Shown here one piece after another: positions 8,413 through 29,052 of a DNA stretch of 64,000 bases (its first letter is position 1; every line of letters starts with the position of its first letter). The notes under the pieces were generated by a model that saw only the letters and a list, made by a program, of their open reading frames with translations, ran no database searches and was not told the origin of the DNA. Both the position numbers and the translations under genes were made by a program. The DNA comes from Acidithiobacillus ferruginosus (GTDB lineage Bacteria; Pseudomonadota; Gammaproteobacteria; Acidithiobacillales; Acidithiobacillaceae), in assembly GCF_018854495.1 (NCBI RefSeq), contig NZ_JABBDR010000010.1, forward strand, positions 19,862-83,861, written 5' to 3'.

Positions 8413-9015
8413 TCAGTCACCATGGCGCCGATGCCACCACCAGTACGCCAACGCTACGGCGATCAACAGCAGCAGGAGCACAATCTGCACATGTTGAACA
8501 CTTTTCAGCAGACTCCGCAGCGAGGCGCCAAGGGCATACCCGATCCCGGCGATGGCGGCCGCCCACACCGCTGCGGCAGCCGGGTTCATCCACAGATAAC
8601 GCTGCGCTGGATAGCGATGCACCCCTAGCAGGATGGGGGTAATGGTGCGGGTGCCATAGATAAAACGGAAGAACAGCGTCACCCAGTCACCAAAACGGCG
8701 GATCAAACCCTCGGCCTGGCCCACGTGGCGGCGCAGAAAGCGCGGCAACATATTCAGCAGGCGTTCGCCATAACGGTAACCAAGCTGGTAAAGCACCTGA
8801 TCATTGAGAGTACTGCCCAACCAGGAGACGAATATCACCAGGGGGAGATCCAGTACTCCGGCATGGGCCAGGGCACCGGCAACAATCACGACAGCCTCCC
8901 CCTCGAGCAGCGTGCCAATGAAGAGAATCCAGTACCCGTACTGGCGCAGAAAGGTGACGATCATCTCCAGGGTAATGGGTTGAAGACGCAGCCAGCTCAG
9001 CATCTCGTTGATCAC
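8413..9015 (-). CDS. DedA family membrane protein
   Basis: DedA/VTT-superfamily inner-membrane proteins are linked to lipid-carrier flipping and membrane homeostasis. The 200-residue protein has a family-typical N-terminus (YGYWILFIGTLLEGEAVVIVAG), the internal GSTLNDQVLYQLGYRYG stretch, the FFRFIYGTRTITPILLG block with the conserved Arg, and a C-terminal membrane helix ending in WWWHRRHGD. The start is a GTG at 9015 with no well-spaced ribosome site, so it is uncertain by a few codons. It follows ppx on the same strand after 109 bases. Confidence 0.87.
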   Translation of the reverse strand: MINEMLSWLRLQPITLEMIVTFLRQYGYWILFIGTLLEGEAVVIVAGALAHAGVLDLPLVIFVSWLGSTLNDQVLYQLGYRYGERLLNMLPRFLRRHVGQAEGLIRRFGDWVTLFFRFIYGTRTITPILLGVHRYPAQRYLWMNPAAAAVWAAAIAGIGYALGASLRSLLKSVQHVQIVLLLLLIAVALAYWWWHRRHGD

Positions 9016-9124
9016 ATCAATGGTTGCATCCTCCCCGATCGTAGGCCGGTACCGGCAAGGTGCTGGCCATAGCCTCCCGCGAAAGACTCGCCAATTGCCG
9101 CTGGGTCAGGCTTGCCACCAGCGG

Positions 9125-10636
9125 TTACCACTGCAGGTGAAAATCCGGCGTGATCCATTCCTGCTCCTGCTCGAGATCAGCGGCCAGTAGCGGCATGTCC
9201 GTCAGCCAGCGCGCTGGCACCTGCAGAACGACATGCCGGCCAGTCACCGTCAAATCCGGCGGCGCCACCAGCGGGAGCGCGCCCCGATGAAAAAGGATGG
9301 CCAGACGGAGCAGGATCGCCAGCTGCTGAAGAGGCACCACATCCTCTGCAGCGACTCCCAAAGAGCGCAACTGGGCAAGACTAGGCAAGCGTTTACGCTG
9401 GGCACGCAGCAACGCCGCAACGACACCCTGCTCACGACGCGAAAAACCCGCGATATCCGCGTTCCGCCAGACATATTCACCATGCTTGTGAAATCCTGAA
9501 TGGGCGATGTCCAGACCGATATCGTGGGTTAAGGCCGCCCAGTGCAGCCATTGCTGATGCCCTCCGTGGAGCGGCCAGGCCCCGGTCGCAGAGGTAAAAA
9601 AGCGTTCCGCCCACCGCGCCACGCTCTGATTACGCAATACCTGACTGTGAAAACGTTCCTGCAGGCTGCAGATGCTCATCTCTCGGGTATCTTCCTGATG
9701 GATGCGGCCAAGCAGGTCGTAAATGGCCCCCTCGCGCAATGCTCCCTCGGAAAAGCGCATTTCCTGCAGGCCCAATGACTCGAAGAGCGCAAAAAGGATG
9801 ATGAAGCCGCCCGGGAAGACTGCAGCACGATCGGGCTTCAGGCCTTTCAGCCGGGTCAGCGCGCGCACCGAACCAAGACGCATCATCTGTTCACGCAGCC
9901 AGTGCATGCCTGCGCGGGTGATGCGCGGGCCCTGACCACCCTCGGCAAGGATACGGGCAATCGACTTGATCGTGCCAGATGAACCCACCGCCTGATCCCA
10001 GCCGTGACTGGCAAAATCCTCCAGCATGGGTTCCACCGCCATGCGTACCCGCTTTTCCAGGCGCTCAGAGGCAGGCGCCGTAATCTGCTCATCGGGGAAA
10101 TAGGCACGGGTGGAGGCCACGCAGCCGAAATGCAGACTCTCCCGCAGGTCAGGGATAAACCCTTGGCCCGCGATCAATTCGGTGCTGCCTCCTCCGATAT
10201 CCACTACCAGACGCCGTTCACGGGCGTCCACCGCAAGACTGTGCGCAACGCCCAGATAGACCAGGCGGGCTTCTTCACGGCCGGCCACGATTTCCAGCGG
10301 ATAACCGAGGGTGTTTTCAATGGCACGGACGAAGCCTTCCGTAGCGCTCGCCTGACGCAGGGTATTGGTGCCGATTACCCGCACCCGCTCCGGACGGATG
10401 CCTCGTAGACGCTGCCCGAAGCGTGCCAGACAATCCAGCGCGCGTTTTTCGACTTCCGGATCGAGACTGCCGTCGTCGCGTAAGCCCTCCGCCAGCCGAA
10501 CGCCTTCGCGCAAACGATCATGCAGACGGATATCAGAGCCGACCTCTTCTGCTACCACCATATGAAAAGAGTTGGAACCCAGGTCCACCGCCGCCAGAAA
10601 ATTTTCGAGCCCTGCTGTGGCTGTGGATTCTGCCAC
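9125..10636 (-). CDS. ppx: Exopolyphosphatase (Ppx/GppA family)
   Basis: Ppx releases phosphate from polyphosphate chains; GppA homologues act on pppGpp. The 503-residue length and C-terminal HD-like domain (ALTHDIGLDIAHSGFHKHGEY) resemble both. The N-terminal actin-like fold is clear: AAVDLGSNSFHMVVAE, VVDIGGGSTELIAGQG and GSSGTIKSI. The GTG start at 10636 is preceded by GGGG at suitable distance and sits 2 bases after the phoU stop. Its place at the end of pstSCAB-phoU points to polyphosphate turnover in phosphate control. Confidence 0.9.
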   Translation of the reverse strand: MAESTATAGLENFLAAVDLGSNSFHMVVAEEVGSDIRLHDRLREGVRLAEGLRDDGSLDPEVEKRALDCLARFGQRLRGIRPERVRVIGTNTLRQASATEGFVRAIENTLGYPLEIVAGREEARLVYLGVAHSLAVDARERRLVVDIGGGSTELIAGQGFIPDLRESLHFGCVASTRAYFPDEQITAPASERLEKRVRMAVEPMLEDFASHGWDQAVGSSGTIKSIARILAEGGQGPRITRAGMHWLREQMMRLGSVRALTRLKGLKPDRAAVFPGGFIILFALFESLGLQEMRFSEGALREGAIYDLLGRIHQEDTREMSICSLQERFHSQVLRNQSVARWAERFFTSATGAWPLHGGHQQWLHWAALTHDIGLDIAHSGFHKHGEYVWRNADIAGFSRREQGVVAALLRAQRKRLPSLAQLRSLGVAAEDVVPLQQLAILLRLAILFHRGALPLVAPPDLTVTGRHVVLQVPARWLTDMPLLAADLEQEQEWITPDFHLQW

Positions 10637-10638
10637 CG

Positions 10639-11352
10639 CTATTTCCCCTGGATGCTTTGTTCTACCTCGTCCAACGGAAGATGCCGGACACTTTTCCCTT
10701 TCGCAAGATAAATGACGTATTCGCAGATGTTCCGGGCATGATCTCCAATACGCTCGATGGCTTTGGCGATAAAGAGCGCATCAATAGCCGGGGTGATGGT
10801 GCGCGGATCTTCCATCATGTAGGTAATCAGACGGCGCAGGGCAGAGCGGTATTCCTGATTGAGCACCTCATCGCCTTTGGCGACGGCAATGGCTTCCTCC
10901 GCATCCGCACGGGCCAGGGCATCCATGGCGCGGCGCAACATATTCAGGGCATAGTCGGCCATGACGCCCACGTCTCTGAGAAAGGCCGGATTGTCGTTAC
11001 GCGCGCCATGTCCCATAGCCAAGGCCATATCGGCAATTTTGCTGGCCTTGTCGCCCATCCGCTCCAGATCCGCGATGGTCTTGATCAGGGTCATCACCAG
11101 ACGCAGATCGCTGGCGGCAGGCTGACGCGTAGCTAGAATGTTGATGCACTCCTCTTCAATACGCACCTCGTAACCATTCACCTCGTGGTCACGCCCGATC
11201 ACTTCACGGGCCAGTTCGGCATCTGACTCCTGCAGTGCCTTGATAGCATTCGTGATCTGCTCCTCCACCACACCGCCCATGGCGAGCACCAGGGCGTGGA
11301 CCTCATGGAGTTCTTCATCAAAACGCTGGGAAATATGTGGTTCTTTGTCCAT
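10639..11352 (-). CDS. phoU: Phosphate signalling regulator PhoU
   Basis: PhoU couples the Pst transporter to the PhoR kinase and represses the Pho response when phosphate is plentiful. The 237-residue all-helical protein has two PhoU repeats, each with the metal-binding E/DxxxD pattern (TIADLERMGDKASKIAD and AIERIGDHARNICEY). It lies 11 bases after pstB, the standard arrangement. Confidence 0.97.
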   Translation of the reverse strand: MDKEPHISQRFDEELHEVHALVLAMGGVVEEQITNAIKALQESDAELAREVIGRDHEVNGYEVRIEEECINILATRQPAASDLRLVMTLIKTIADLERMGDKASKIADMALAMGHGARNDNPAFLRDVGVMADYALNMLRRAMDALARADAEEAIAVAKGDEVLNQEYRSALRRLITYMMEDPRTITPAIDALFIAKAIERIGDHARNICEYVIYLAKGKSVRHLPLDEVEQSIQGK

Positions 11353-11363
11353 AGCTGTGCTCC

Positions 11364-12131
11364 TTAACCGTAGCGACCCGTGATGTAGTCTTCAGTCTGC
11401 TTCTTGCCGGGATTAGTGAATAACTGGTGGGTGGAATCAAATTCCACCATCTCGCCCATATACATAAATGCCGTATAATCAGATACTCGCGCCGCCTGTT
11501 GCATGTTGTGGGTGACGATCAGGATCGTAAACTGATTCCGCAGTTCGCTCACCAGCTCTTCAATCTTGAGGGTGGCGATGGGGTCCAGTGCGGAGGTCGG
11601 TTCATCGAGCAGGATTACCTCCGGTTTCACCGCCACCGCCCGCGCGATACACAGGCGTTGCTGCTGCCCGCCGGACAACCCCAGCCCACTCGTCTTGAGT
11701 TTGTCCTTCACCTCTTCCCAGAGGGCAGCATGGCGCAACGCCTGCTCCACCCGCTCGTCCATCTCCACCTTGCGTAATTTTTCATAGAGCTTGATGCCAA
11801 AGGCAATATTGTCATAGATGGACATGGGGAAAGGCGTTGGCTTCTGAAATACCATGCCGATTTTAGCGCGCAGCATATTCACATCCATGCCGGGAGCGAG
11901 AATATCCTCACCATCCAGCAGGACCTCGCCGGTCGCGCGTTGCCCGGGGTACAGGGAATACATGCGATTGAATACCCGCAGAAGCGTCGACTTGCCGCAA
12001 CCCGACGGCCCGATGAACGCGGTCACCTGATTCTCGGGTATTTCCAGATTGATATCTATGAGGGCCTTGTTGCTCCCGTAAAAAAAATCCAGGTGGCGGA
12101 CGGATATTTTGGTTTTCTGGGGTTCCGACAT
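11364..12131 (-). CDS. pstB: Phosphate ABC transporter ATP-binding protein
   Basis: PstB is the ATPase of the high-affinity phosphate importer. The 255-residue protein has Walker [12 protein letters not shown], the ABC signature [14 protein letters not shown], Walker [13 protein letters not shown] and the switch His in IVTHNMQQA. The frame is open further upstream inside pstA; the ATG at 12131 shares one base with the pstA stop (TAATG) and gives normal length. Confidence 0.97.
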
Positions 12132-12985
12132 TAACGCGGGCTCCTGTCTTTGATAAGGAAGCGGGAAACAAGGCTCAAGACTAGCACAGCCATGGCAGCT
12201 ATCAACGCGCCCGCCCAGGCCAGATGCTGCCATTCCGGATAAGGACTCATGGCAAATTGAAAAATGACTACAGGGACATTGGCGATCGGTTTGTCCAGGT
12301 TCGTGCTGAAAAACTGATTACTGAGCGCCGTGAACAGCAGTGGTGCGGTCTCGCCACTGATTCTCGCCACCGCCAGCAGAACCCCGGTGAGTATACCAGA
12401 ACGTGCGGCCCGATAACTCACCTGAACGATCATCTTCCAGTGGGGCGCCCCCAGGGCCAGAGCCGCCTCGCGCATGGTCCCTGGTACCATACCCAGCATC
12501 TCATCCGTAGTGCGCAGGACGACCGGTAAAAGCAAAATAGCCAGTGACAAAGCCCCGGCAAGACCCGAGAAGCTCCCCATGGGCACCACCACGACTGCGT
12601 AAATAAACAGACCGATCACGATGGACGGTGCGCTGAGCAGAATATCATTAAAAAAACGAATGACTGCCGCAAGTCGGCTGCCTTGCGCAAACTCAGCGAG
12701 ATAGGTGCCGGCCAGGATTCCCACAGGGGTACCGATCATCACCGCCACGCCGATCATCAGCAGGCTGCCCACGAAGGCGTTGCGCAAGCCCCCGATACTG
12801 CCAGGCGCCGGCGTGTCACCTGTAAACAGTTCCATGTTGAGGGCGGTAGCACCATAAGAGAGGGTGGTCCAAAGAATCCAGACCAGCCAGAAGAGGCCAA
12901 ACAGCGTCGTTGCCATGGCCATACCCAGATTAAAGACATTCCAGAAGCGACGGCGCAGATAACGGGCGTTCTTGGCCGTATTCAT
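12131..12985 (-). CDS. pstA: Phosphate ABC transporter permease PstA
   Basis: PstA is one of two membrane subunits of the Pst importer. The 284-residue protein has about six membrane helices and the EAA-loop-like segment [16 protein letters not shown] that contacts PstB. Its ATG overlaps the pstC stop as ATGA. Confidence 0.96.
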
Positions 12986-14004
12986 AAACCCACCTTCCCT
13001 TGCCCCTGACCGAGACGCCAGAGCATCAGTTTGGCCAGCACCAGCACCACGAAGGTAATGATGAAGAGAATGAAACCCAAGGCCATGAGCGCCGACTTGT
13101 ACATGGGTGAAAAGGCCTCGGCAAACTCGTTCGCCAGCGCGGCGGCGATGGAGTTTCCGGCGTCGAGCAAAGAGATATGGAGGTCGTGGGCATTACCGAT
13201 CACAAAGGTTACCGCCATGGTTTCGCCAAGGGCACGGCCCAGACCGAGGAACACCCCGCCGACTACCGCCGTACGGGTATAAGGGAGAACCACATGGCGT
13301 GCCACTTCCCAAGTCGTGGCACCCAGGCCATAGGCCGACTCTTTGAGCATCGCTGGCACGACCAGAAAAACATCGCGCATGATCGCGGAAATAAAGGGGA
13401 TCACCATGATGGCCAGAATGATACCGGCAGTCAGCATACCAATGCCCATCGGCGGGCCGCGAAACAACGCACCGATACCGGGCAGAGCACCCAGATGATC
13501 ATTGAGCCAAGGCTCTGCGCTACCCAAAACCGGCGCAAAGACGAAAAGACCCCACATGCCGAAGATGATACTGGGGATACCCGCCAGCAGTTCAATGGCG
13601 CTGCCGATCGGTTGGCGCAACCATTCTGGCGCGAGTTCACTGATAAATAAGGCGATACCGAAACTGATGGGCACGGCGATCAGCAGGGCGGTCAGGGAGC
13701 TGACCAAAGTCCCGTAAATCGGTACCAGAGCGCCGAAGTTCTCCGTAACCGGATCCCAGGCATCGCTCCAGAAAAAAGCGAAGCCAAAATGATGAAAAGC
13801 TTCCCACCCGCGCAAAAAGAGGGACAACGCCACCCCGACCAGCAGGAGCAGGACCAAAAAGGCGAGCCCACCCGTCAGCCAGCGGAATCTCCGATCCATG
13901 GCATGTAGGCGCCGTGATCGGGCGGGGCTGATGCGAGATGGCACAGCGGGGGACGGCACCGCCACCATCCGCATTTCCAACTCTGCGTCGCGGGTATCGT
14001 CCAT
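12982..14004 (-). CDS. pstC: Phosphate ABC transporter permease PstC
   Basis: PstC pairs with PstA to form the channel. The 340-residue protein carries a hydrophilic N-terminal tail of about 45 residues, a first helix (GGLAFLVLLLLVGVALSLFL), and the EAA-like segment KESAYGLGATTWEVARHVV. It starts 8 bases after the pstS stop. Confidence 0.96.
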   Translation of the reverse strand: MDDTRDAELEMRMVAVPSPAVPSRISPARSRRLHAMDRRFRWLTGGLAFLVLLLLVGVALSLFLRGWEAFHHFGFAFFWSDAWDPVTENFGALVPIYGTLVSSLTALLIAVPISFGIALFISELAPEWLRQPIGSAIELLAGIPSIIFGMWGLFVFAPVLGSAEPWLNDHLGALPGIGALFRGPPMGIGMLTAGIILAIMVIPFISAIMRDVFLVVPAMLKESAYGLGATTWEVARHVVLPYTRTAVVGGVFLGLGRALGETMAVTFVIGNAHDLHISLLDAGNSIAAALANEFAEAFSPMYKSALMALGFILFIITFVVLVLAKLMLWRLGQGQGKVGL

Positions 14005-14012
14005 ATCTTAGC

Positions 14013-15032
14013 TCACTGGCCCAGATTCCTTTTCCAGTATGCCTCGATCTGCGTCACCGTAGTTTTTGGTAATGGCACATAATCCAGGCTCCTGGCTTCC
14101 GCTTGCGCCTGCGGGGCTGTCAGGAACCAGCGTGCAAATTTCAGGACTCCGGCATTAACCGTCTTATCGACGTCCTGGCGCATAAGGATGTAAGTCGCAG
14201 CGGAAATGGGCCAACTCTGGGCACCCGGCTGGTTGGTGAGAATCATGTAGAAATCCTCTACCTTGGTAAAGTCCGCATTCGCCGCGGCGGCCTGGAAAGT
14301 AGCCAGATCAGGGGCCACCACCTTGCCCGCGGCATTGATCATTTTGCCGTAAGCCATGTGATTTTCCTTGGCGTAGGCATATTCCACGTAGCCGATGGCA
14401 CCAGGAATCCGCTGTACATATGCAGCGACGCCCGCATTACCCTTGCCGCCCACACCGACGGGCCAGGAAACAGCCGTGTTATCGCCCACCCGTTGCTTCC
14501 ATTCCGGGCTGACCTTGGCCAGATAATTGGTAAAGTTGAAGGTAGTGCCGGAACCGTCAGAACGATGGACCACCGTGATATTCATATCCGGCAGCTTAAC
14601 GCCCTTATTGAGGTCGGCAATGGCCGCGTCGTTCCATTTCTTGATCTTACCCAGGTAAATACCGGTGAGTACGGTGCCGTTGAAGGTCAGTTCACCGGGC
14701 TTTATACCGGGGACATTCACAACAGGGGTAATGCCAATAATCACTGCCGGAAACTGGACGAGATGGTCTTTGTTGAGATATTCAGGCTTGAGAGGCATGT
14801 CGCTGTTGGCGAAAGCGACGGTTTTGGCCTTGATTTGGGCAATCCCGCCACCAGAACCGATGGCCTGATAATTCACCATGGTGCCGGTTTTTTGTTGGTA
14901 AGTTTCCGCCCATTTGGACAGGACGGGATAAATGGCCGTGCCGCCTGCGGCGGAAATGGTTTCCGCCTGCACCAGCCCTGCTACACCCAGGCTCATCACG
15001 CCCAACACAAAAGCCACACCCTTGGTCTTCAT
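14013..15032 (-). CDS. pstS: Periplasmic phosphate-binding protein
   Basis: PstS captures phosphate in the periplasm for PstCAB. The 339-residue protein has a signal peptide ending VQA before ETISAAGGTAIYPVL, and the phosphate-binding motifs GSGGGIAQI and HRSDGSGTTFNFTNYL. The start codon follows GGGAGC. It is first in pstSCAB-phoU-ppx and lies behind a Pho box. Confidence 0.97.
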   Translation of the reverse strand: MKTKGVAFVLGVMSLGVAGLVQAETISAAGGTAIYPVLSKWAETYQQKTGTMVNYQAIGSGGGIAQIKAKTVAFANSDMPLKPEYLNKDHLVQFPAVIIGITPVVNVPGIKPGELTFNGTVLTGIYLGKIKKWNDAAIADLNKGVKLPDMNITVVHRSDGSGTTFNFTNYLAKVSPEWKQRVGDNTAVSWPVGVGGKGNAGVAAYVQRIPGAIGYVEYAYAKENHMAYGKMINAAGKVVAPDLATFQAAAANADFTKVEDFYMILTNQPGAQSWPISAATYILMRQDVDKTVNAGVLKFARWFLTAPQAQAEARSLDYVPLPKTTVTQIEAYWKRNLGQ

Positions 15033-15076
15033 GATGTCACGCTCCCTATACAGGTTTAGTGAAAAGCTGCACAGAG

Positions 15077-15110
15077 ACTATAGCAAGGTTTTATTACCGT
15101 TTTATGACAC
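15077..15110 (-). promoter_or_regulatory. Pho box and -10 element for pstS
   Basis: On the minus strand two 11-base direct repeats, GTGTCATAAAA and CGGTAATAAAA (15110-15089), match the PhoB box pattern of tandem CTGTCAT-like repeats. A TATAGT -10 (15082-15077) lies six bases further on. The box overlaps the last codons of phoR. PhoB is encoded at 16492-17223, so autonomous phosphate control of pst is very likely. Confidence 0.8.
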
Positions 15111-16430
15111 TGCGGAGTCGGAGGAAAAACTGCGGGCGAGATGGAGCGGAAAATGCGCAGTAAAAGTGGTTCCCTTACCCACTTCACTCGCCACTTCCAG
15201 ATGCCCCTGATAACGCTCGACAGCGTGACGGACAATGGCCAGTCCCAACCCTGTACCCCCCATGCGTCGGGAGCGGCCTTTATCCACCCGATAAAAACGC
15301 TCGGTGATACGCTGCAAGTGCTCGGTAGCGATACCATCGCCGGTATCCTGCACCACCAAACGCAGATCGCCCGAGCGACGCTCCCAGCGCACGCTGACGG
15401 TGCGGTCTGCCGGGGTATATTTGATGGCGTTTTCCAATAAATTTCGGATGATACTGGTCAGATCGATGGTTTCTGCGAAAATGCCCAAGCCGCCATCCAG
15501 CGCCGTGTCGATCTGCAAACGTTTTTGCACTATGGCGGGCGCCAGGGTGTCCAGCGTGTTGTGTATCATATCCGCGAGCATGAGCGTTTCGCAGTGTTCC
15601 GGATTCGCCTCGGCGGCCTCCATACGTGCCAGAGACAGCAAGTCTTCGACCAAAGACTGCATGCGCAGCGTCTGCTGTTCCATGAGACGAAGTTGACTAC
15701 CCACCTCATCGTCGGCAGCGATGGGACTGTCCAGCATGTTTTCCAGGAAACCGCGTACCACCGTCAGCGGGCTGCGCAACTCATGGGAGACGTTGGCTAC
15801 GAAGTCCTGACGGACCTGTTCAAGCTGACGGATACGGGTCACGTCCCGGAAGATGACCAAAGCACCCGCATCGGCGAGGGGATAGCGCATGCCTTCCAAA
15901 ATCTGTTGTGCATCTGCCGGGGCCGGGAGCTGCAGGCTGGGCGGACCTTCGCCGGCGAGAAAGGCGCGCAGATGCGGAGTTCGCAGCCAGAAGGCCAGCG
16001 GCTTGCCCGCGTCATCGGGCCATTGCAGTTGCAGCAAGCGGATACCCGAAGGATTCACCCAGAGCAATTGGCCACGCTCGTCCATCAATACCACAACATC
16101 GGGCATTGCCTGCAAGGCGTCACGCAACTGTACGATCTGGGCACTGAGCTGGCGGTGCTGCGCCTCCTGATCACGCCGCCAGTGGTAACCCTCGGCAAAC
16201 GTCTCCTCCCACATTCCCCCCGCCAGCGGGGGTAACAAGGTATACGGGTTACGGAACCAAGCGCTGAAGCTCTGGGATTGCTGGCGATGCCATCCGACCC
16301 AGAGCGCCAGCAAGAAAGCGATGATCACCAGCGGGAGGTAGGACCAGGCGTGCAGATCATCGGCGGCCAGAAAAATCGGAATCAGCGCCCAGACCGCTAC
16401 GGGGTAAAACCAGGCACGGAGGTACTTCAC
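15102..16430 (-). CDS. phoR: Phosphate-regulon sensor histidine kinase PhoR
   Basis: PhoR phosphorylates PhoB when phosphate is low. It has two N-terminal membrane helices, a PAS-like domain (ALQAMPDVVVLMDERGQLLWVN region), the HisKA box with FVANVSHELRSPLTVV (catalytic His), and an HATPase domain with the N box NLLENAIKYTP, DTGDGI and GGTGLGLAIV. The frame is open to a GTG at 16532 overlapping phoB, but the GTG at 16430 puts the first helix near the N-terminus as in other PhoR proteins (442 residues). The start is thus uncertain. Confidence 0.93.
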   Translation of the reverse strand: MKYLRAWFYPVAVWALIPIFLAADDLHAWSYLPLVIIAFLLALWVGWHRQQSQSFSAWFRNPYTLLPPLAGGMWEETFAEGYHWRRDQEAQHRQLSAQIVQLRDALQAMPDVVVLMDERGQLLWVNPSGIRLLQLQWPDDAGKPLAFWLRTPHLRAFLAGEGPPSLQLPAPADAQQILEGMRYPLADAGALVIFRDVTRIRQLEQVRQDFVANVSHELRSPLTVVRGFLENMLDSPIAADDEVGSQLRLMEQQTLRMQSLVEDLLSLARMEAAEANPEHCETLMLADMIHNTLDTLAPAIVQKRLQIDTALDGGLGIFAETIDLTSIIRNLLENAIKYTPADRTVSVRWERRSGDLRLVVQDTGDGIATEHLQRITERFYRVDKGRSRRMGGTGLGLAIVRHAVERYQGHLEVASEVGKGTTFTAHFPLHLARSFSSDSAVS

Positions 16431-16491
16431 GCCGGAAAGATATCCCGGTGTGTGCTGCGGCCTGCTGAACGCGCAAAAGCTGGCACACCAG

Positions 16492-17223
16492 TCATCGCTC
16501 GTCCACCACTTCCCGCTGGAAACCCAAGGCACTGCAGCGATAGCCTTCGCCCCTGACAGTTTCGATGATCTGGGCGTAACCGTGGTGTTCCAGCCCCCGA
16601 CGCAAACGGCGAATGTGGACGTCGACCGTGCGCTCTTCGATAAAACTCTGCCGTCCCCAGATCTGATCGAGCAGCATATCCCGCGAAAAGACCCGTTCCG
16701 GGTTGGTCACAAAAAGACGCAAAAGACGAAACTCGGTAGGCCCGAGATGAACCTGTACCTCACCGGCGTAGACCCGATGCGCGCGCAGATCCACATGCAG
16801 GTCGCCAAGCCGTACCCGGCCCGCCGCCGTACCGCCGTAACTGCGCCGCAGCAGGGCATTGACCCGCGCCACCAGTTCCCGCGGAGAAAAGGGTTTGGCC
16901 AGATAATCATCCGCACCTGATTCCAGACCATGCACCCTGTCACCCTCCTCACCGCGCGCGGTAAGGAGAATGATGGGCAGCTTCCGGGTCTCTTCACGAC
17001 GGCGCAGCATACGGCACCATGCCAGGCCATTTTCGCCCGGAAGCATCCAGTCAAGCACCAGCAACTGCGGCCCCCAGGTCTGGAGTACCGCTTCCGCCGA
17101 TTCGACGCTGCCCTCACAGCGGACGTCAAAGCCATTACGCTGCAGGGTAACGCGCAGGAGTTCCTGAATGCCTTCCTCATCCTCCACTACCAGGACACGG
17201 GAGGATACCTTGTCTTCGTCCAT
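16492..17223 (-). CDS. phoB: Phosphate-regulon response regulator PhoB
   Basis: PhoB binds Pho boxes when phosphorylated. The 243-residue protein has a receiver domain (VLVVEDEEGI, phosphoacceptor Asp in LLVLDWMLPGENG, Lys in LAKPFSPRELVARV) and a winged-helix DNA-binding domain (LGPTEFRLLRLFV, RTVDVHIRRLRRGLE, IETVRGEGYRC). I chose the ATG at 17223, which has AGGCAGG in place, over upstream in-frame starts. phoR follows on the same strand. Confidence 0.95.
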   Translation of the reverse strand: MDEDKVSSRVLVVEDEEGIQELLRVTLQRNGFDVRCEGSVESAEAVLQTWGPQLLVLDWMLPGENGLAWCRMLRRREETRKLPIILLTARGEEGDRVHGLESGADDYLAKPFSPRELVARVNALLRRSYGGTAAGRVRLGDLHVDLRAHRVYAGEVQVHLGPTEFRLLRLFVTNPERVFSRDMLLDQIWGRQSFIEERTVDVHIRRLRRGLEHHGYAQIIETVRGEGYRCSALGFQREVVDER

Positions 17224-17342
17224 ACCTGCCTTTTGCCCGGATACGCCCATCGTTCGCTTATTGTGGCGCAAGCCCTGGCGGAATGCCAAGACGTTGCACA
17301 CCAAAATAACCCCGTCAGTACAGGATGGGAAGGGTCATGTTC

Positions 17343-19444: not shown

Positions 19445-20413
19445 ATGGCACACGGCCACACCGATCATACAGAATCCCCGCATACCCATGCGCCCCCTCA
19501 TGATCACGGACACAGCCATGGAGCGCATGGTCACGCCCCCGTGAATGGCCGTGCTTTTGCGATCGGCATTGGACTCAATCTGAGCTTCGTACTGACCGAG
19601 GCGGTGTTCGGAGTGCTTGGACATTCCCTCGCGTTGCTCGCAGACGCCGGCCATAATCTCAGCGACGTTCTGGGGCTGCTCATGGCTTGGGGAGCGAGTG
19701 CCCTTGCCAACCGCCCCCCTTCGGGGCGATTTACCTATGGACTACGCAGCTCGTCCATTCTCGCCGCGCTGGCGAACGCCGTCTTTCTGCTGGTGGTCAC
19801 CGGCGGCATCGCCTGGGAAGCCATTGAGCGGCTGCTGCACCCGGCCTCTGTAGCAAGCTTCATCGTCATCGGTGTGGCGGCCTTCGGGGTAGTGATCAAC
19901 ACGGGAACGGCCCTGCTCTTCATGTCGGGGCGAAAAGGCGACTTGAATATCCGTGCGGCGTTTTTGCACATGGCAGGCGACGCAGCCATCTCTTTTGGCG
20001 TAGTCGTTGCGGGGATCGTGATGCTGTTCACCCACTGGTTCTGGCTAGACTCTGCGGCCAGCCTGCTGATCAGCGCGTTGATTGTGATGGCCACCTGGGG
20101 TTTATTGCGTGACTCCGCCCATCTGGCGCTGCACGGCGTCCCCCCGGGTATCGACACCGACGCAGTACGGGTTTATTTGCTTGGGTTACCCAACGTCACG
20201 GCCGTGCATGACCTGCACATCTGGGCCATGAGCACCACCGAAACCGCGCTGACTGCGCATCTGGTCATGCCCGACGGCTATCCCGGCGATGCGCTGCTCC
20301 ATGAAATTGGTGAGGAATTGCGTGCGCATTTTCAGATCGTCCATCCTACCTTGCAAGTGGAAACAGGCGATCCGGGCCATCCCTGCAAGCTGGCCGGGGA
20401 GCATCTGGTATAA
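19445..20413 (+). CDS. Cation diffusion facilitator metal exporter (CzcD/ZitB type)
   Basis: CDF proteins export Zn, Co, Cd or similar ions in exchange for protons. The 322-residue protein has a His-rich cytosolic N-tail (about 12 His in the first 31 residues), six membrane helices, the metal-site pattern HSLALLADAGHNLSDVLGL with HxxxD, a second HMAGDAAISFG site, and a C-terminal ferredoxin-like domain (VHDLHIWAMSTTETALTAHL). GAGGAG precedes the ATG. The His-rich tail and HD sites suggest zinc, but the substrate is not proven. Confidence 0.93.
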   Translation: MAHGHTDHTESPHTHAPPHDHGHSHGAHGHAPVNGRAFAIGIGLNLSFVLTEAVFGVLGHSLALLADAGHNLSDVLGLLMAWGASALANRPPSGRFTYGLRSSSILAALANAVFLLVVTGGIAWEAIERLLHPASVASFIVIGVAAFGVVINTGTALLFMSGRKGDLNIRAAFLHMAGDAAISFGVVVAGIVMLFTHWFWLDSAASLLISALIVMATWGLLRDSAHLALHGVPPGIDTDAVRVYLLGLPNVTAVHDLHIWAMSTTETALTAHLVMPDGYPGDALLHEIGEELRAHFQIVHPTLQVETGDPGHPCKLAGEHLV

Positions 20414-20484: not shown

Positions 20485-21126
20485 TCAATGCAGACCGGAC
20501 AGATAAGCCGCCACGTCCTGCATTTGCCGGTTTGTCAGCTTTTCTGCCACAGGCTGCATGATGGGATTCACCCGGTTTCCATCATGCAGATAGGTTAGCT
20601 GCTGAACGATATATCCATATCGCTGCCCGGCCAACCGCGGAAATATCCCTCGACCTGTCGCGTTTACGGCGTGGCAGGCCATACACGCGGGAACACCCTG
20701 TGCAGCGATGCCCTGCAGGAATATCTGCTTACCCGCGGACACCCCGGGACGTGGCGAGGACGCGCTGTGCATGGGCGATTGCGCCGCATAATACTTCGCA
20801 ACCAACTGGATTTCCTGCTGAGTCATGGCCTGGGCGACAGGCCACATGTAAATCTGCGCATTTTGATCCGCACGGGTATGCGATTTGAACTGCTTCAGTT
20901 GCCATGCCAGATATTGCACCTGCTGACCACCCAGGCGCGGAACCATCGGATAGATGGTATTTTCGCCGGTCTGCCCGTGGCAGATCATGCATGACTGATG
21001 GACAGATTGTGGCACCTGCGCCAGTGCCGGACTTGCGCCCAATATCGCCAACACTATGGCGGCACTGCAGATAACTCCCTTCTTTTTGGAAGAAGCGAAA
21101 CGGTTCGATGATAATACAGGATACAT
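20485..21126 (-). CDS. Diheme c4-type cytochrome c, partner of the Cyc2-like protein
   Basis: This is a periplasmic electron carrier. The 213-residue protein has a signal peptide ending ALA and two c4-like halves, each with one heme site: CMICH (near residue 46) and CMACH (near residue 146), with candidate Met ligands later in each half (for example IYMWPVAQ and NPIMQPVAEKL). The ATG at 21126 is eight bases from AGGAGG; an upstream in-frame GTG is less well placed. It starts 13 bases after the Cyc2-like gene stop, so the two are surely co-transcribed. The pair has the same order as cyc2-cyc1 of the rus operon of Acidithiobacillus ferrooxidans, but no oxidase follows. The role in iron or sulfur electron transfer is inference. 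Confidence 0.92.
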   Translation of the reverse strand: MYPVLSSNRFASSKKKGVICSAAIVLAILGASPALAQVPQSVHQSCMICHGQTGENTIYPMVPRLGGQQVQYLAWQLKQFKSHTRADQNAQIYMWPVAQAMTQQEIQLVAKYYAAQSPMHSASSPRPGVSAGKQIFLQGIAAQGVPACMACHAVNATGRGIFPRLAGQRYGYIVQQLTYLHDGNRVNPIMQPVAEKLTNRQMQDVAAYLSGLH

Positions 21127-21139
21127 AGCCACCCCCTCC

Positions 21140-22585
21140 TTAAAATGATATCCAGGTCAGCAGCTCAAGCGTATTGTATGCCGAAGCGCCGAAACTCGTG
21201 GCCGTACTGTTCGTCAGCCCGCGAAATTGGTTAAACATGGTATACCGCAACGAGAATCTGGTGTTCCACCAGGGCAAATAAGACGCCTCGATCCATTCTC
21301 CATTGGTATCCGGAGATCCGTTCGCGGAATAGCTCGTTCCCCAGAGATTAGGGTTGGCAGAACCCCAGGTATCCAGATATCCACCAGATACACCGTAATG
21401 ATCATGGTACCAGTAGGAACCATTTATATTGAGGGAATTGAGACTTCCAGTTGCCGTACTTGAAAGATTACTGGTTGGACCAAAGGCGCCAAAGCCCTGA
21501 TCCTCGTGTATCCAGTCCGCGTGCAACGTGACATTGCTGTTGTCCGCCGTATCCAGCCATTGCAATTGGCTATCCAGATCATAATCATCGAAGCTGTCTA
21601 CAGGGCCGCCTTTCGTGTTGGGACTATCATACAGGCGACTCCACATCCCATAGGTACCGACTTCCCAGTTCCAGTTACCCCAGTCGCGCTGATAGGCCAG
21701 GCGAACATAGGGGGCGACACCCTGCAATCTGCCGTCATTAGCATATCCGAATGCCCCCCCGGAGTTCGACTGTACGCCAATACCGTCCGCGTTGGTGTAT
21801 CCGTCAGCCTCGAAGTAGAGCCAGTTGGCCTTATCCTGCCCAAAAATATAGGCTTCGTAAGTGCCGATACCTGCAAGAGGATAACCGGCGCCATGCGCCC
21901 CTTCGATGAAGGTGGTGGGTATCTGTCGGATGGCACTGTATTTGGAACTCGAGAACGGCGCGTACCAGTCCGGTACCGTGTTGTAGATATCCGGCTCGGT
22001 CGGCGTATTATTCACTTCGACACCGGTGATCAGCAGTTGGTTGGGACCCAGGTTCCATGGATGCGCCCAACGGATGTCGCTGTCGTCCATACCGAAACCG
22101 CCTCGGCCGCTGTATGTCAGATGCAGGAATGCACCGATATGGGGGGTGATTTCCCCCGCATAGAACAAACTCACCTGTTGCGGAAATTGAATGTCATTCT
22201 GGTTACCCGGCGGGTTGGATACTCCCGCCCCATTAAAGGCCGCCTGGCCTCCGGCTACGTTGGCATAGCTCGCCTGAAAAAAAATCGAAAACTGTGATAC
22301 GCGCATCAGCAGAAGTGCGGTGCTTTTTCCAAACTTTGCTTCCAGCTTCTGCTGCCGCTGAACATTATTACTGGTATATCCCAGCAGCTTGAACATACGA
22401 CCCATGGGCGTGAGCTGAGGATATGATGTATGGCACGTTGCGCACGACCAGCCGGTCTGACGAGCGAATGTCGGCAATGCCCACGCATTGCCCGAACATG
22501 CGGCCGCCCCAATCATAAATGTAGCGCATGTAGCCCAACGAATTTTGTGCTTCCACTGCGTGCTGCTCCGCGACTCAATTTTCAT
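21140..22585 (-). CDS. Cyc2-like fused monoheme cytochrome / outer-membrane porin
   Basis: The 481-residue protein has a signal peptide (cleavage likely after AWA, residue 36), one heme-binding site CATCH at residues 48-52 within FARQTGWSCATCHTSYPQLTPMGRMFK, and then about 400 residues of alternating, aromatic-rich, Gly/Asn-rich strands typical of a beta-barrel, ending in Phe (LELLTWISF), the usual outer-membrane signature. This architecture is that of Cyc2, the outer-membrane cytochrome-porin that takes electrons from Fe(II). ATG at 22585 follows AGGAGA. The diheme c4 gene follows at once. Whether the donor is iron or another extracellular reductant cannot be told from sequence. Confidence 0.85.
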   Translation of the reverse strand: MKIESRSSTQWKHKIRWATCATFMIGAAACSGNAWALPTFARQTGWSCATCHTSYPQLTPMGRMFKLLGYTSNNVQRQQKLEAKFGKSTALLLMRVSQFSIFFQASYANVAGGQAAFNGAGVSNPPGNQNDIQFPQQVSLFYAGEITPHIGAFLHLTYSGRGGFGMDDSDIRWAHPWNLGPNQLLITGVEVNNTPTEPDIYNTVPDWYAPFSSSKYSAIRQIPTTFIEGAHGAGYPLAGIGTYEAYIFGQDKANWLYFEADGYTNADGIGVQSNSGGAFGYANDGRLQGVAPYVRLAYQRDWGNWNWEVGTYGMWSRLYDSPNTKGGPVDSFDDYDLDSQLQWLDTADNSNVTLHADWIHEDQGFGAFGPTSNLSSTATGSLNSLNINGSYWYHDHYGVSGGYLDTWGSANPNLWGTSYSANGSPDTNGEWIEASYLPWWNTRFSLRYTMFNQFRGLTNSTATSFGASAYNTLELLTWISF

Positions 22586-22705
22586 ATTTGATCTCCTTTT
22601 TTTGATGTTTCTTCCTTTCCTGGGCTGAAAACCCACACCTGCCTTTGTTGCCACTTCGTTAACAATTCGCGCCGAAAGACAAATCCCCGATTACCTTGTT
22701 AGCAT

Positions 22706-22720
22706 TCACCAACATGGTGA
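22706..22720. promoter_or_regulatory. Inverted repeat TCACCA-3-TGGTGA before the Cyc2-like gene
   Basis: Six-base perfect arms at 22706-22711 and 22715-22720 are separated by three bases and lie 121 bases upstream of the start codon. This looks like a dimeric regulator site or a small leader hairpin. No regulator can be named. Confidence 0.35.
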
Positions 22721-22886
22721 TTCACTGATACAGATTCACAAAAGAACCCCGGCCATCGCGCAGATCGCCTTTGACCGGAATACGCAGCCCTGCGACCACC
22801 GCACAGGCACTCCGCCTGATTGGGACCAGGAGCGTATGGGAAACCCATCTCCACCACTCGATGCCGAACAGATGCACGTAACAAAT

Positions 22887-27178: not shown

Positions 27179-28303
27179 ATGAATAGCGGCGATTACAGGT
27201 ACATCTGGCAGGCCAGTGACTGGCCGAACTGGCGCTTCGATCTGGCAGTGCTGGCCGGCCCAATGGCTGAGGTCAGTCGCGCCCAGGGGCTTTTGATGGG
27301 CCGTCTGGCCGACGTGGGCATGGCGCTGCGGGATCAGGCCAGCTTGGCCGCGCTTACCGAGGATGTGGTCAAGACCAGCGAGATCGAGGGTGAGCAGCTC
27401 AATGTCGAATCGGTGCGTTCGTCCATCGCCCGCAGGCTGGGCGTAGACATCGGTGCCCTGGCTCCGGTCGATCGCCACGTCGAGGGCGTGGTCGATATGG
27501 TGCTCGATGCCACCGCCAACTGCCGTGCGCCGGTGTCGCGGGAGCGACTGTTCGGCTGGCATGCCGCGCTGTTTCCCACCGGCTACTCCGGCCTTGCCAA
27601 GATCAAGGTCCGCGGCTGGCGCGACGATGCCAGTGGCCCCATGCAAGTGGTGTCTGGACCCATTGGCCGACAGCGGGTGCATTTCGAGGCACCGCCCGCC
27701 GAGCGTCTGGAATCCGAAACCAGCCGATTCTTGGGCTGGCTGAATGGCGCATCGAACGACCCGTCGTTGCTCAAGGCCGGCCTCGGCCATTTGTGGTTCG
27801 TCACCTTGCACCCGTTCGACGATGGTAATGGCCGTATCGCCCGGGCCATCTGCGATCTGCTGCTGGCCCGCGCCGATGGCAGCCCGCGACGCTTCTACAG
27901 CTTGTCGGCGCAGATCCAGCGCGAACGCAGGGCGTACTACGACATCCTGGAACGGACCCAGAAGAGATCGATGGATGTCACCGAGTGGCTCGCCTGGTTC
28001 CTCGACACGCTCCATCGCGCCGTCGATCAGGCACGGCACACGCTCGACGCCGTGCTGACGAAGGCCCGCTTCTGGCAGCGCTGGGCGACCATGCCGTTGA
28101 ACGGGCGACAGGTGAAGTTGCTCAACCAGCTGATCGACGGCTTCGAGGGCAAGCTCACCAGCAGCAAGTGGGCGGCCATCGCCAAGTGCTCGCCGGACAC
28201 CGCCCTGCGCGACATCAACGATCTGCTTGCGCGGGGTGTGCTGCGGAAAACGGATGCGGGTGGGCGCAGCACCAGCTACGAACTGAACGATCTGCCGGAG
28301 TAG
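27179..28303 (+). CDS. Fic-domain protein with N-terminal DUF4172 and inhibitory motif
   Basis: Fic enzymes transfer AMP or another nucleotide part to target proteins. The 374-residue protein has an N-terminal DUF4172-type start (YIWQASDWPNWRFD), an internal inhibitory motif of the (S/T)xxxE(G/N) type at T66-G71 (TSEIEG), the complete catalytic motif HPFDDGNGRIAR at residues 211-222, and a C-terminal winged-helix-like part (KWAAIAKCSPDTALRDINDL). All key residues are intact. It has no obvious ribosome site. Lines sampled by eye are 62-70 percent G+C against about 58 next door, suggesting transfer. No antitoxin gene is adjacent, which fits self-inhibited class II Fic proteins. The target is unknown. 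Confidence 0.92.
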   Translation: MNSGDYRYIWQASDWPNWRFDLAVLAGPMAEVSRAQGLLMGRLADVGMALRDQASLAALTEDVVKTSEIEGEQLNVESVRSSIARRLGVDIGALAPVDRHVEGVVDMVLDATANCRAPVSRERLFGWHAALFPTGYSGLAKIKVRGWRDDASGPMQVVSGPIGRQRVHFEAPPAERLESETSRFLGWLNGASNDPSLLKAGLGHLWFVTLHPFDDGNGRIARAICDLLLARADGSPRRFYSLSAQIQRERRAYYDILERTQKRSMDVTEWLAWFLDTLHRAVDQARHTLDAVLTKARFWQRWATMPLNGRQVKLLNQLIDGFEGKLTSSKWAAIAKCSPDTALRDINDLLARGVLRKTDAGGRSTSYELNDLPE

Positions 28304-28688: not shown

Positions 28689-29052
28689 TGGTGGAGGCGG
28701 CGGGAATTGAACCCGCGTCCGCAGTACCTAGACCACCGGATCTACATGCGTAGTTTGTCTTTTGGCTTTAACCGCACCGCCCTCCGACAGACAGGATGAC
28801 GACATGGCGATTCTGCTTTAATTTAGCACGCATCCCACAGACTAGAATGCGCACGATTCCGTGTTTCATGACCCTCCGCGCGCCTTTCGGCTCCGGATCC
28901 ACAGACAAATCCGGGCAGAGGGCTCACTGCTTAAGCAGCGAGGGCGTAATTGCTGTCGTTGGCAATTATGAATCTGCGACCAGTTTTAAGAGCGAACCGC
29001 AGCTCTGCATGCACCGAAGGCTTCGCGACCTGCGTCGAAGCCGGTCGCCCCC
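28689..29052 (-). ncRNA. ssrA: tmRNA (trans-translation), tag ANDSNYALAA
   Basis: tmRNA rescues stalled ribosomes and tags the unfinished protein for proteolysis. On the minus strand the gene starts GGGGGCGACCGGCTTCGACG at 29052 and ends with a tRNA-like T arm (GGGTTCAATTCCCGCC in RNA sense) and CCGCCTCCACCA at 28689. The tag frame begins with the resume codon GCC at 28963 and encodes ANDSNYALAA followed by TAA at 28933-28931. The length of 364 nt and the encoded CCA are normal for one-piece tmRNA. Confidence 0.96.

Follow-up and report, generated by a model that had tools for sequence, protein, structure and literature searches.

A second cyc2-cyc1 gene pair of Acidithiobacillus ferruginosus and its probable link with bc1 complex II

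The analyzed stretch of the Acidithiobacillus ferruginosus genome, 64,000 nucleotides in length (hereafter, the window), contains a gene pair that repeats the two front genes of the Acidithiobacillus rus operon (cyc2-cyc1-cup-coxBACD-rus) in the same order. The cup-coxBACD-rus genes are not found downstream of it; a convergent CDF gene is located there instead. The question is with which inner-membrane partner such a pair works and in which direction it carries electrons. The original prediction proposed a second electron entry route that either feeds a different terminal acceptor or takes electrons from another extracellular donor, such as sulfur species or other metals.

The first gene, cyc2B (21140..22585, minus strand; start ATG at 22585, stop at 21140), was assigned by ORF, motif and homology to the Cyc2-type fusions of a monoheme cytochrome and an outer-membrane porin. 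The 481-aa protein has a single CxxCH motif (CATCH, inside ALPTFARQTGWSCATCHTSYPQL) and the C-terminus ...LLTWISF with a terminal Phe, as had been predicted; the ribosome-binding site AAAGGAGATCAAAT precedes its ATG. The Cyc2 signature, as given in the available text of PMC8406198, consists of AxPxFAR[Q/K][T/Y] before and PxL after a single N-terminal CxxCH. It is present in Cyc2B as ALPTFARQT-GWS-CATCH-TSY-PQL, where PxL starts 4 residues past CxxCH, as published, whereas the first motif is separated from CxxCH by 3 residues in Cyc2B and the other aligned rows versus 5 in the published signature. No Pfam model matches Cyc2B, and an NCBIfam CrcB match (E 0.12) was dismissed as chance. Searching PDB sequences with the Cyc2B profile in hmmsearch gave three matches, all at chance level, and thus no relative by sequence, and no relative was found in the viral contigs searched. 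The AlphaFold2 model, obtained from a shallow alignment (10 rows), has a mean pLDDT of 33.8 and did not show the barrel. The 16-stranded outer-membrane barrel is presumed from homology, the mature part of Cyc2B being ~67% identical to the Cyc2 encoded by the rus operon of this genome.

The second gene, cyc1B (20485..21126, minus strand), encodes a diheme c4-type cytochrome of 213 aa. Its probable start is the ATG at 21126, located after AAGGAGG, which leaves a gap of exactly 13 bases to cyc2B; in the mechanical ORF list the gene starts two codons upstream, at the GTG at 21132 (215 aa). The c4 assignment is in agreement with the two CxxCH motifs, the Pfam Cytochrom_C match (1.5e-14) and the closest solved chain, PDB 1h1o (cytochrome c-552 of A. 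ferrooxidans), which aligns over approximately the entire mature length (E 9e-64). Thus, the anticipated Cyc1-like diheme gene 13 bases on was found as described. A cyc2B gene with 98% identity and the same neighbours is present in the complete genome G007, and dN/dS values between species (0.07–0.25) indicate purifying selection on the pair; for these reasons, the pair is considered real and beyond chance. Promoter and terminator scans of the locus gave results near the shuffled level.

As expected, the unit ends at the convergent CDF exporter gene (19445-20413, plus strand; TIGR01297, 1.3e-71), with no rus-type operon at the locus. The exporter was rejected as a functional partner: it occurs in 16 of 17 genus genomes and, among the loci read, adjoins the pair only in G000 (the window genome), G003 and G007, where the pair lies between a glycosyltransferase gene and the CDF gene. 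The G011 contig (locus L079) ends next to its glycosyltransferase gene, which places this site outside the comparison of CDF neighbours. Comparison with G007 shows that 1-base deletions disrupt cyc2B and the adjacent CDF gene in G003 (locus L040, 8583-11805); the clustering of the breaks may reflect decay or an assembly error. A phosphate-type cluster (window 12982-17304, minus strand) encoding a PBP-like binding protein, a PhoR-like sensor kinase and a response regulator also accompanies the pair in G007 and G003. Elsewhere in the window, a tmRNA gene (28689-29052, minus strand; tag ANDSNYALAA) lies close to a gene encoding a Fic/DOC-family protein with an N-terminal DUF4172 (27179-28303, plus strand; Pfam 9.9e-14 and 6.4e-31).

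The window genome (3.0 Mb in 309 contigs, listed as 100% complete) was searched for the rus operon, which was detected on contig C8. Since the pair is located on another contig, C2, it represents a second copy. In this rus operon, rus (copper protein), CoxA and CoxB are backed by Pfam; coxC, cup and ctaA have no Pfam match and were named by gene order and size in comparison with the published operon, and coxD was not called at the ORF length cut used. The mature window proteins are ~67% identical to Cyc2A and ~55% identical to Cyc1A of the rus operon, from which the pair differs in the absence of cup, cox and rus genes after it, in its leader and in Ala in place of Glu121 in Cyc1. The petII operon (cycA2-sdrA2-petA2B2C2-hip) was found on contig C48, with cytochrome b, Rieske, c1 and diheme c proteins recognized by Pfam. 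The pair is thus not directly upstream of petII in this genome, in contrast to five other genomes described below; the two loci have a leader block in common. In locus L005 of contig C8 (12587-14546), genes for a ParA-like ATPase and replication initiator protein A (RPA, 2.2e-82) lie between the rus operon and petI, and a ParA-like ORF also occurs near the rus operon of locus L009; the presence of ParA-like and RPA genes beside iron genes suggests an integrated plasmid-like element.

The window pair is probably the orthologue of Cyc2B/Cyc1B of A. ferrooxidans, because G007, which we take to be ATCC 23270, has just two Cyc2 places: the rus copy beside the CoxA and Rus matches, and the 98% orthologue with the window's neighbours. 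This orthology is based on elimination in G007. The Cyc2B/Cyc1B pair itself is already known. According to the accessible parts of the published accounts, Cyc2B (ACK78881) takes part in extracellular ferric iron reduction. In anaerobic S0/Fe(III) cells of the A. ferrooxidans type strain, Cyc2B and Cyc1B were found in amounts exceeding those of the rus copies (Norris et al. 2018, via PMC8790237 and PMC7735108); during H2/Fe(III) growth, they were raised, yet less abundant than the A copies, and petII was strongly induced (PMC7735108). The rise of Cyc2B/Cyc1B in anaerobic Fe(III) growth is published, in these parts, for A. ferrooxidans strains only. In strain CCM 4253, cyc2B and cyc1B form a two-gene cluster (DN052_01245-DN052_01250); similarly to the window pair, the A. 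ferrooxidans cluster lies outside rus in genomes that possess rus as well. Stand-alone cyc2 and cyc1 genes of Acidithiobacillus, likewise without cox or rus, are mentioned in PMC10654088 (Fig. 2d); its available text neither assigns them a function nor connects them with petII. The available descriptions of A. ferrooxidans Cyc2B/Cyc1B contain no mention of a petII linkage, a shared leader or a split at Glu121, and a limited literature search, with most subscription papers outside its scope, found no report of cyc2-cyc1 heading petII or of the other two features. What may be new is the petII linkage.

This linkage was detected in a survey of 29 genomes of the family. Cyc2 was found in 11 of them, rusticyanin and rus-type CoxA in 8 each (the latter defined by an identity of at least 72%, the remaining matches all being at or below 34%), petII-type cytochrome b in 12 and petI-type in 6. 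In 5 of the 11 Cyc2-bearing genomes (G011, G012, G014, G023 and G024), cyc2-cyc1 is located directly upstream of cycA2-sdrA2-petA2-petB2, and petC2 follows in the four loci whose contig continues; the bc1 subunits were checked by Pfam in G000, G012, G023 and G024. These loci span two genera, G023 and G024 belonging to another genus than G011, G012 and G014. In the latter three genomes, approximately 253 bases separate cyc1 and cycA2, and with such a gap, cycA2 may have its own promoter. No rusticyanin, rus-type CoxA or petI cytochrome b match was found in G012, G014 and G023 (85, 90 and 91% complete), with a small chance that they lie in missing sequence. G024 (61% complete) has a cup-coxB-coxA-coxC-rus cluster (locus L086, contig C30, 5353-10529) without cyc2-cyc1 before it, and its sole Cyc2 heads petII. 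Only rus copies of cyc2, and no B pair, were found in G002, G004 and G005, and G013 contains petII and no Cyc2. Outside the family, 14 stretches from 13 of 21 other matching genomes were read (8 left out), covering up to five genes before and eight after cyc2. None of these stretches has a pet gene near cyc2; cup-coxBAC is near cyc2 in one of them (G291), and a Cyc1-like gene adjoins cyc2 in three (G262, G146 and G161). Within the stretches read, the petII linkage of cyc2 is seen in the family only. One of the stretches (locus L131 of G184, 9014-14695) carries two Cyc2 homologues ~3 kb apart on opposite strands, one of them immediately following an AcrB-type efflux gene.

At petII loci that lack the pair, remnants of its former presence were found. 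In genus g1, the genes flanking petII match across the genomes read. In G005, ~135 bases of the cyc1 end are retained in the space before cycA2 (388-base alignment, 82%), and this relic is also visible as a short ORF (locus L074, 11338-11541; genome matched to A. ferrivorans). In the corresponding space of G004, the leader from upstream runs directly into the final 8 bases of cyc1. The pair is also absent at petII in G000, G002, G003, G007 and G013. In view of the cyc1 remnants and the matching flanks, the sequences argue that the pair at petII is an old state in genus g1 and was lost in several lines.

The leader block that the window pair has in common with the petII operon of its genome is located at 22696..22746 (minus strand). 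A 61-base window query containing it matched, in the whole genome, only itself and the petII leader (81%, E 5.9e-10), where the block lies ~425 bases before cycA2. Homology to the petII-headed pair of G011 extends from upstream of cyc2 through the cyc1 stop (84% over 2192 columns), and a separate 48-base block further upstream also matches G011 (79%). A composite 51-base probe gave a score of 42 for the leaders of the pair in G000, G003 and G007, 47–48 for the petII leaders with the pair in G011, G012 and G014, and 38–40 for petII leaders without the pair, except for that of G002 (29); G023 and G024 (26 and 25) are at background. In the window genome, the same probe scored 26 at rus, 26 at petI and 22 at the CDF gene, the next best place in the window being 26. 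The block far upstream of cycA2 in pairless petII loci may be a relic. The block includes a 15-bp dyad, TCACCA-N3-TGGTGA (22706..22720), which is a possible operator. It has four sites in the genome versus none for the backwards control: two are the window-pair leader and the petII leader, and the other two lie inside ORFs, so the dyad was ruled out as a regulon marker.

The Cyc1 proteins of the two operons differ at a residue of functional interest. According to the available text of PMC3561395, E121 of Cyc1 is crucial for rusticyanin recognition, and transfer to the oxidase seems to depend on Y63. At position 121 of 1h1o, Glu was found in all seven rus-type and Ala in all eight petII-type Cyc1 sequences, the window Cyc1B included, and Tyr63 is present in all 15. 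Neither CycA protein has Glu at this position, nor do the three Cyc1-like outgroup sequences, which suggests that the rus type acquired Glu121. The phylogenetic tree of Cyc1 constructed without outgroups separated the rus type (7) from the petII type (8) with a support of 100/100; with outgroups, the petII type was neither resolved nor rejected as one clade (p-AU 0.565). In the Cyc2 tree, 14 sequences of acidithiobacilli formed one clade (100/100) relative to eight class-level outgroups with long branches, and Cyc2B grouped with the canonical Acidithiobacillus Cyc2 (100/100). The G003 Cyc2 fragment and the L014 Cyc1 were left out of the trees; in the outgroup tree, the Cyc2 of L014 (the G262 contig) and L015 were replaced by class-level rows, and the second G184 copy was left out.

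In G012 (locus L048) and G014 (locus L047), in which no rus operon was found, the pair heading petII combines an A-type Cyc2 with a petII-type Cyc1, and grouping of their Cyc2 with B was rejected (p-AU 3.6e-6). The most fitting reading is that a rus-type copy took the place of cyc2 inside the petII cluster; judging by these sequences, the association with petII is looser for Cyc2 than for Cyc1. In the rooted Cyc2 tree, the B clade lies outside genus g4 and the A type (92/88). The idea that the petII forms are older than the rus forms remains weak, because a common clade of B and g4 Cyc2 was not rejected (p-AU 0.146).

Taken as a whole, we consider it probable that Cyc2B/Cyc1B, a paralogue of the rus Cyc2A/Cyc1A, works with bc1 complex II and directs electrons outward to Fe(III). 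The petII link of the pair is well supported: bc1 complex II is proposed as the partner because of the five petII-headed loci, the loss traces, the shared leader and the Glu121 split. The original expectation of a different terminal acceptor is thereby borne out in part of its meaning, in that the rus aa3 oxidase is likely not the inner-membrane partner, a role for which the evidence favors bc1 complex II. Gene linkage is silent on direction; outward flow is suggested by the published proteomics of anaerobic Fe(III)-reducing cells. The proposed second Cyc2-type route is upheld by the motif and the tree, and it is probably an exit, rather than the entry that had been supposed. Electrons would pass from quinol through bc1 complex II, CycA2, Cyc1B and Cyc2B to extracellular Fe(III) during anaerobic growth on sulfur or hydrogen. 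The pair would be controlled jointly with bc1 complex II and CycA2, Cyc1B would exchange electrons with CycA2 and not with rusticyanin, and neither rusticyanin nor the aa3 oxidase would take part in connecting the quinol pool with the cell surface.

The same linkage to a bc1 operon would be seen if the pair served uphill Fe(II) oxidation, with Cyc2B/Cyc1B passing Fe(II) electrons to a reversed bc1 complex for NADH, as the available text of PMC2754497 describes for the A copies and bc1 complex I of A. ferrooxidans. This is rather unlikely: the operon concerned is petII, which the same text reports as higher on sulfur and which PMC7735108, in its accessible part, reports as strongly induced in anaerobic H2/Fe(III) growth. 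The sulfur-growth report (PMC2754497) and the lack of rus or cox genes at the window locus could also be taken in favor of an entry route for another extracellular donor, such as sulfur species or other metals. Nothing pointing to such a donor was found, however; a gene specific to such a donor accompanies the pair in none of the five petII-headed loci, and the CDF exporter is an ordinary neighbour, which makes this part of the original prediction highly improbable.

It is also improbable that the pair is a redundant copy that duplicates the function of Cyc2A/Cyc1A for both directions of flow and feeds rusticyanin and the aa3 oxidase when these are present. The identity to Cyc2A (~67%) and Cyc1A (55%) fits such redundancy, as do the seemingly exchangeable porins of G012 and G014, with A-type Cyc2 beside petII-type Cyc1, and the case of G024, where cup-cox-rus genes are present and yet the sole Cyc2 heads petII. 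On the other hand, Glu121 is absent from 8/8 petII-type Cyc1, the leader is separate from the rus leader, and the pair is retained in G012, G014 and G023, where rusticyanin and rus-type CoxA were not found.

Several findings count against the preferred model of outward flow through bc1 complex II: the low block score of G002 (29/51), the background scores of G023 and G024, the possible relic nature of the block before petII in the window genome, the ~253-base gap before cycA2 in G011, G012 and G014, the A-type Cyc2 at petII in G012 and G014, the lower abundance of the B than of the A proteins on H2/Fe(III), and the presence of petII without Cyc2 in G013. In addition, A. ferrianus, A. ferriphilus and A. 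ferrivorans, to which the pairless genomes G002, G004 and G005 were matched, are listed as Fe(III) reducers in the table available from PMC8790237. The B pair is therefore not needed for Fe(III) reduction in the genus. In A. ferridurans, according to the accessible part of PMC7735108, rus inactivation abolished Fe(III) reduction; together with the pairless reducers, this leaves B as at most one of two routes.

A broader proposal, which we put forward tentatively and regard as somewhat doubtful, is that cyc2-cyc1-petII connects quinol with extracellular iron on its own, without rusticyanin or the rus aa3 oxidase, and that it represents the earlier arrangement in Acidithiobacillaceae; the rus operon would later have copied its two front genes, and the rus Cyc1 would have gained Glu121. 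If this is true, organisms similar to G012, G014 and G023 would represent acidithiobacilli that respire iron but lack the textbook iron-oxidation chain. In the available text of a 2022 review, ferric iron reduction by way of bc1 II / CycA2 / Hip ends in "a still unknown reductase" (PMC8790237), although Cyc2B had already been detected in proteomes. Cyc2B/Cyc1B would be the first candidate for this reductase because of the operon order in two genera, the loss traces, the leader found at the pair and petII only, and the Cyc1 residue split. The results also suggest that, in this family, the presence of cyc2 by itself does not safely indicate a rus-type iron-oxidation chain.
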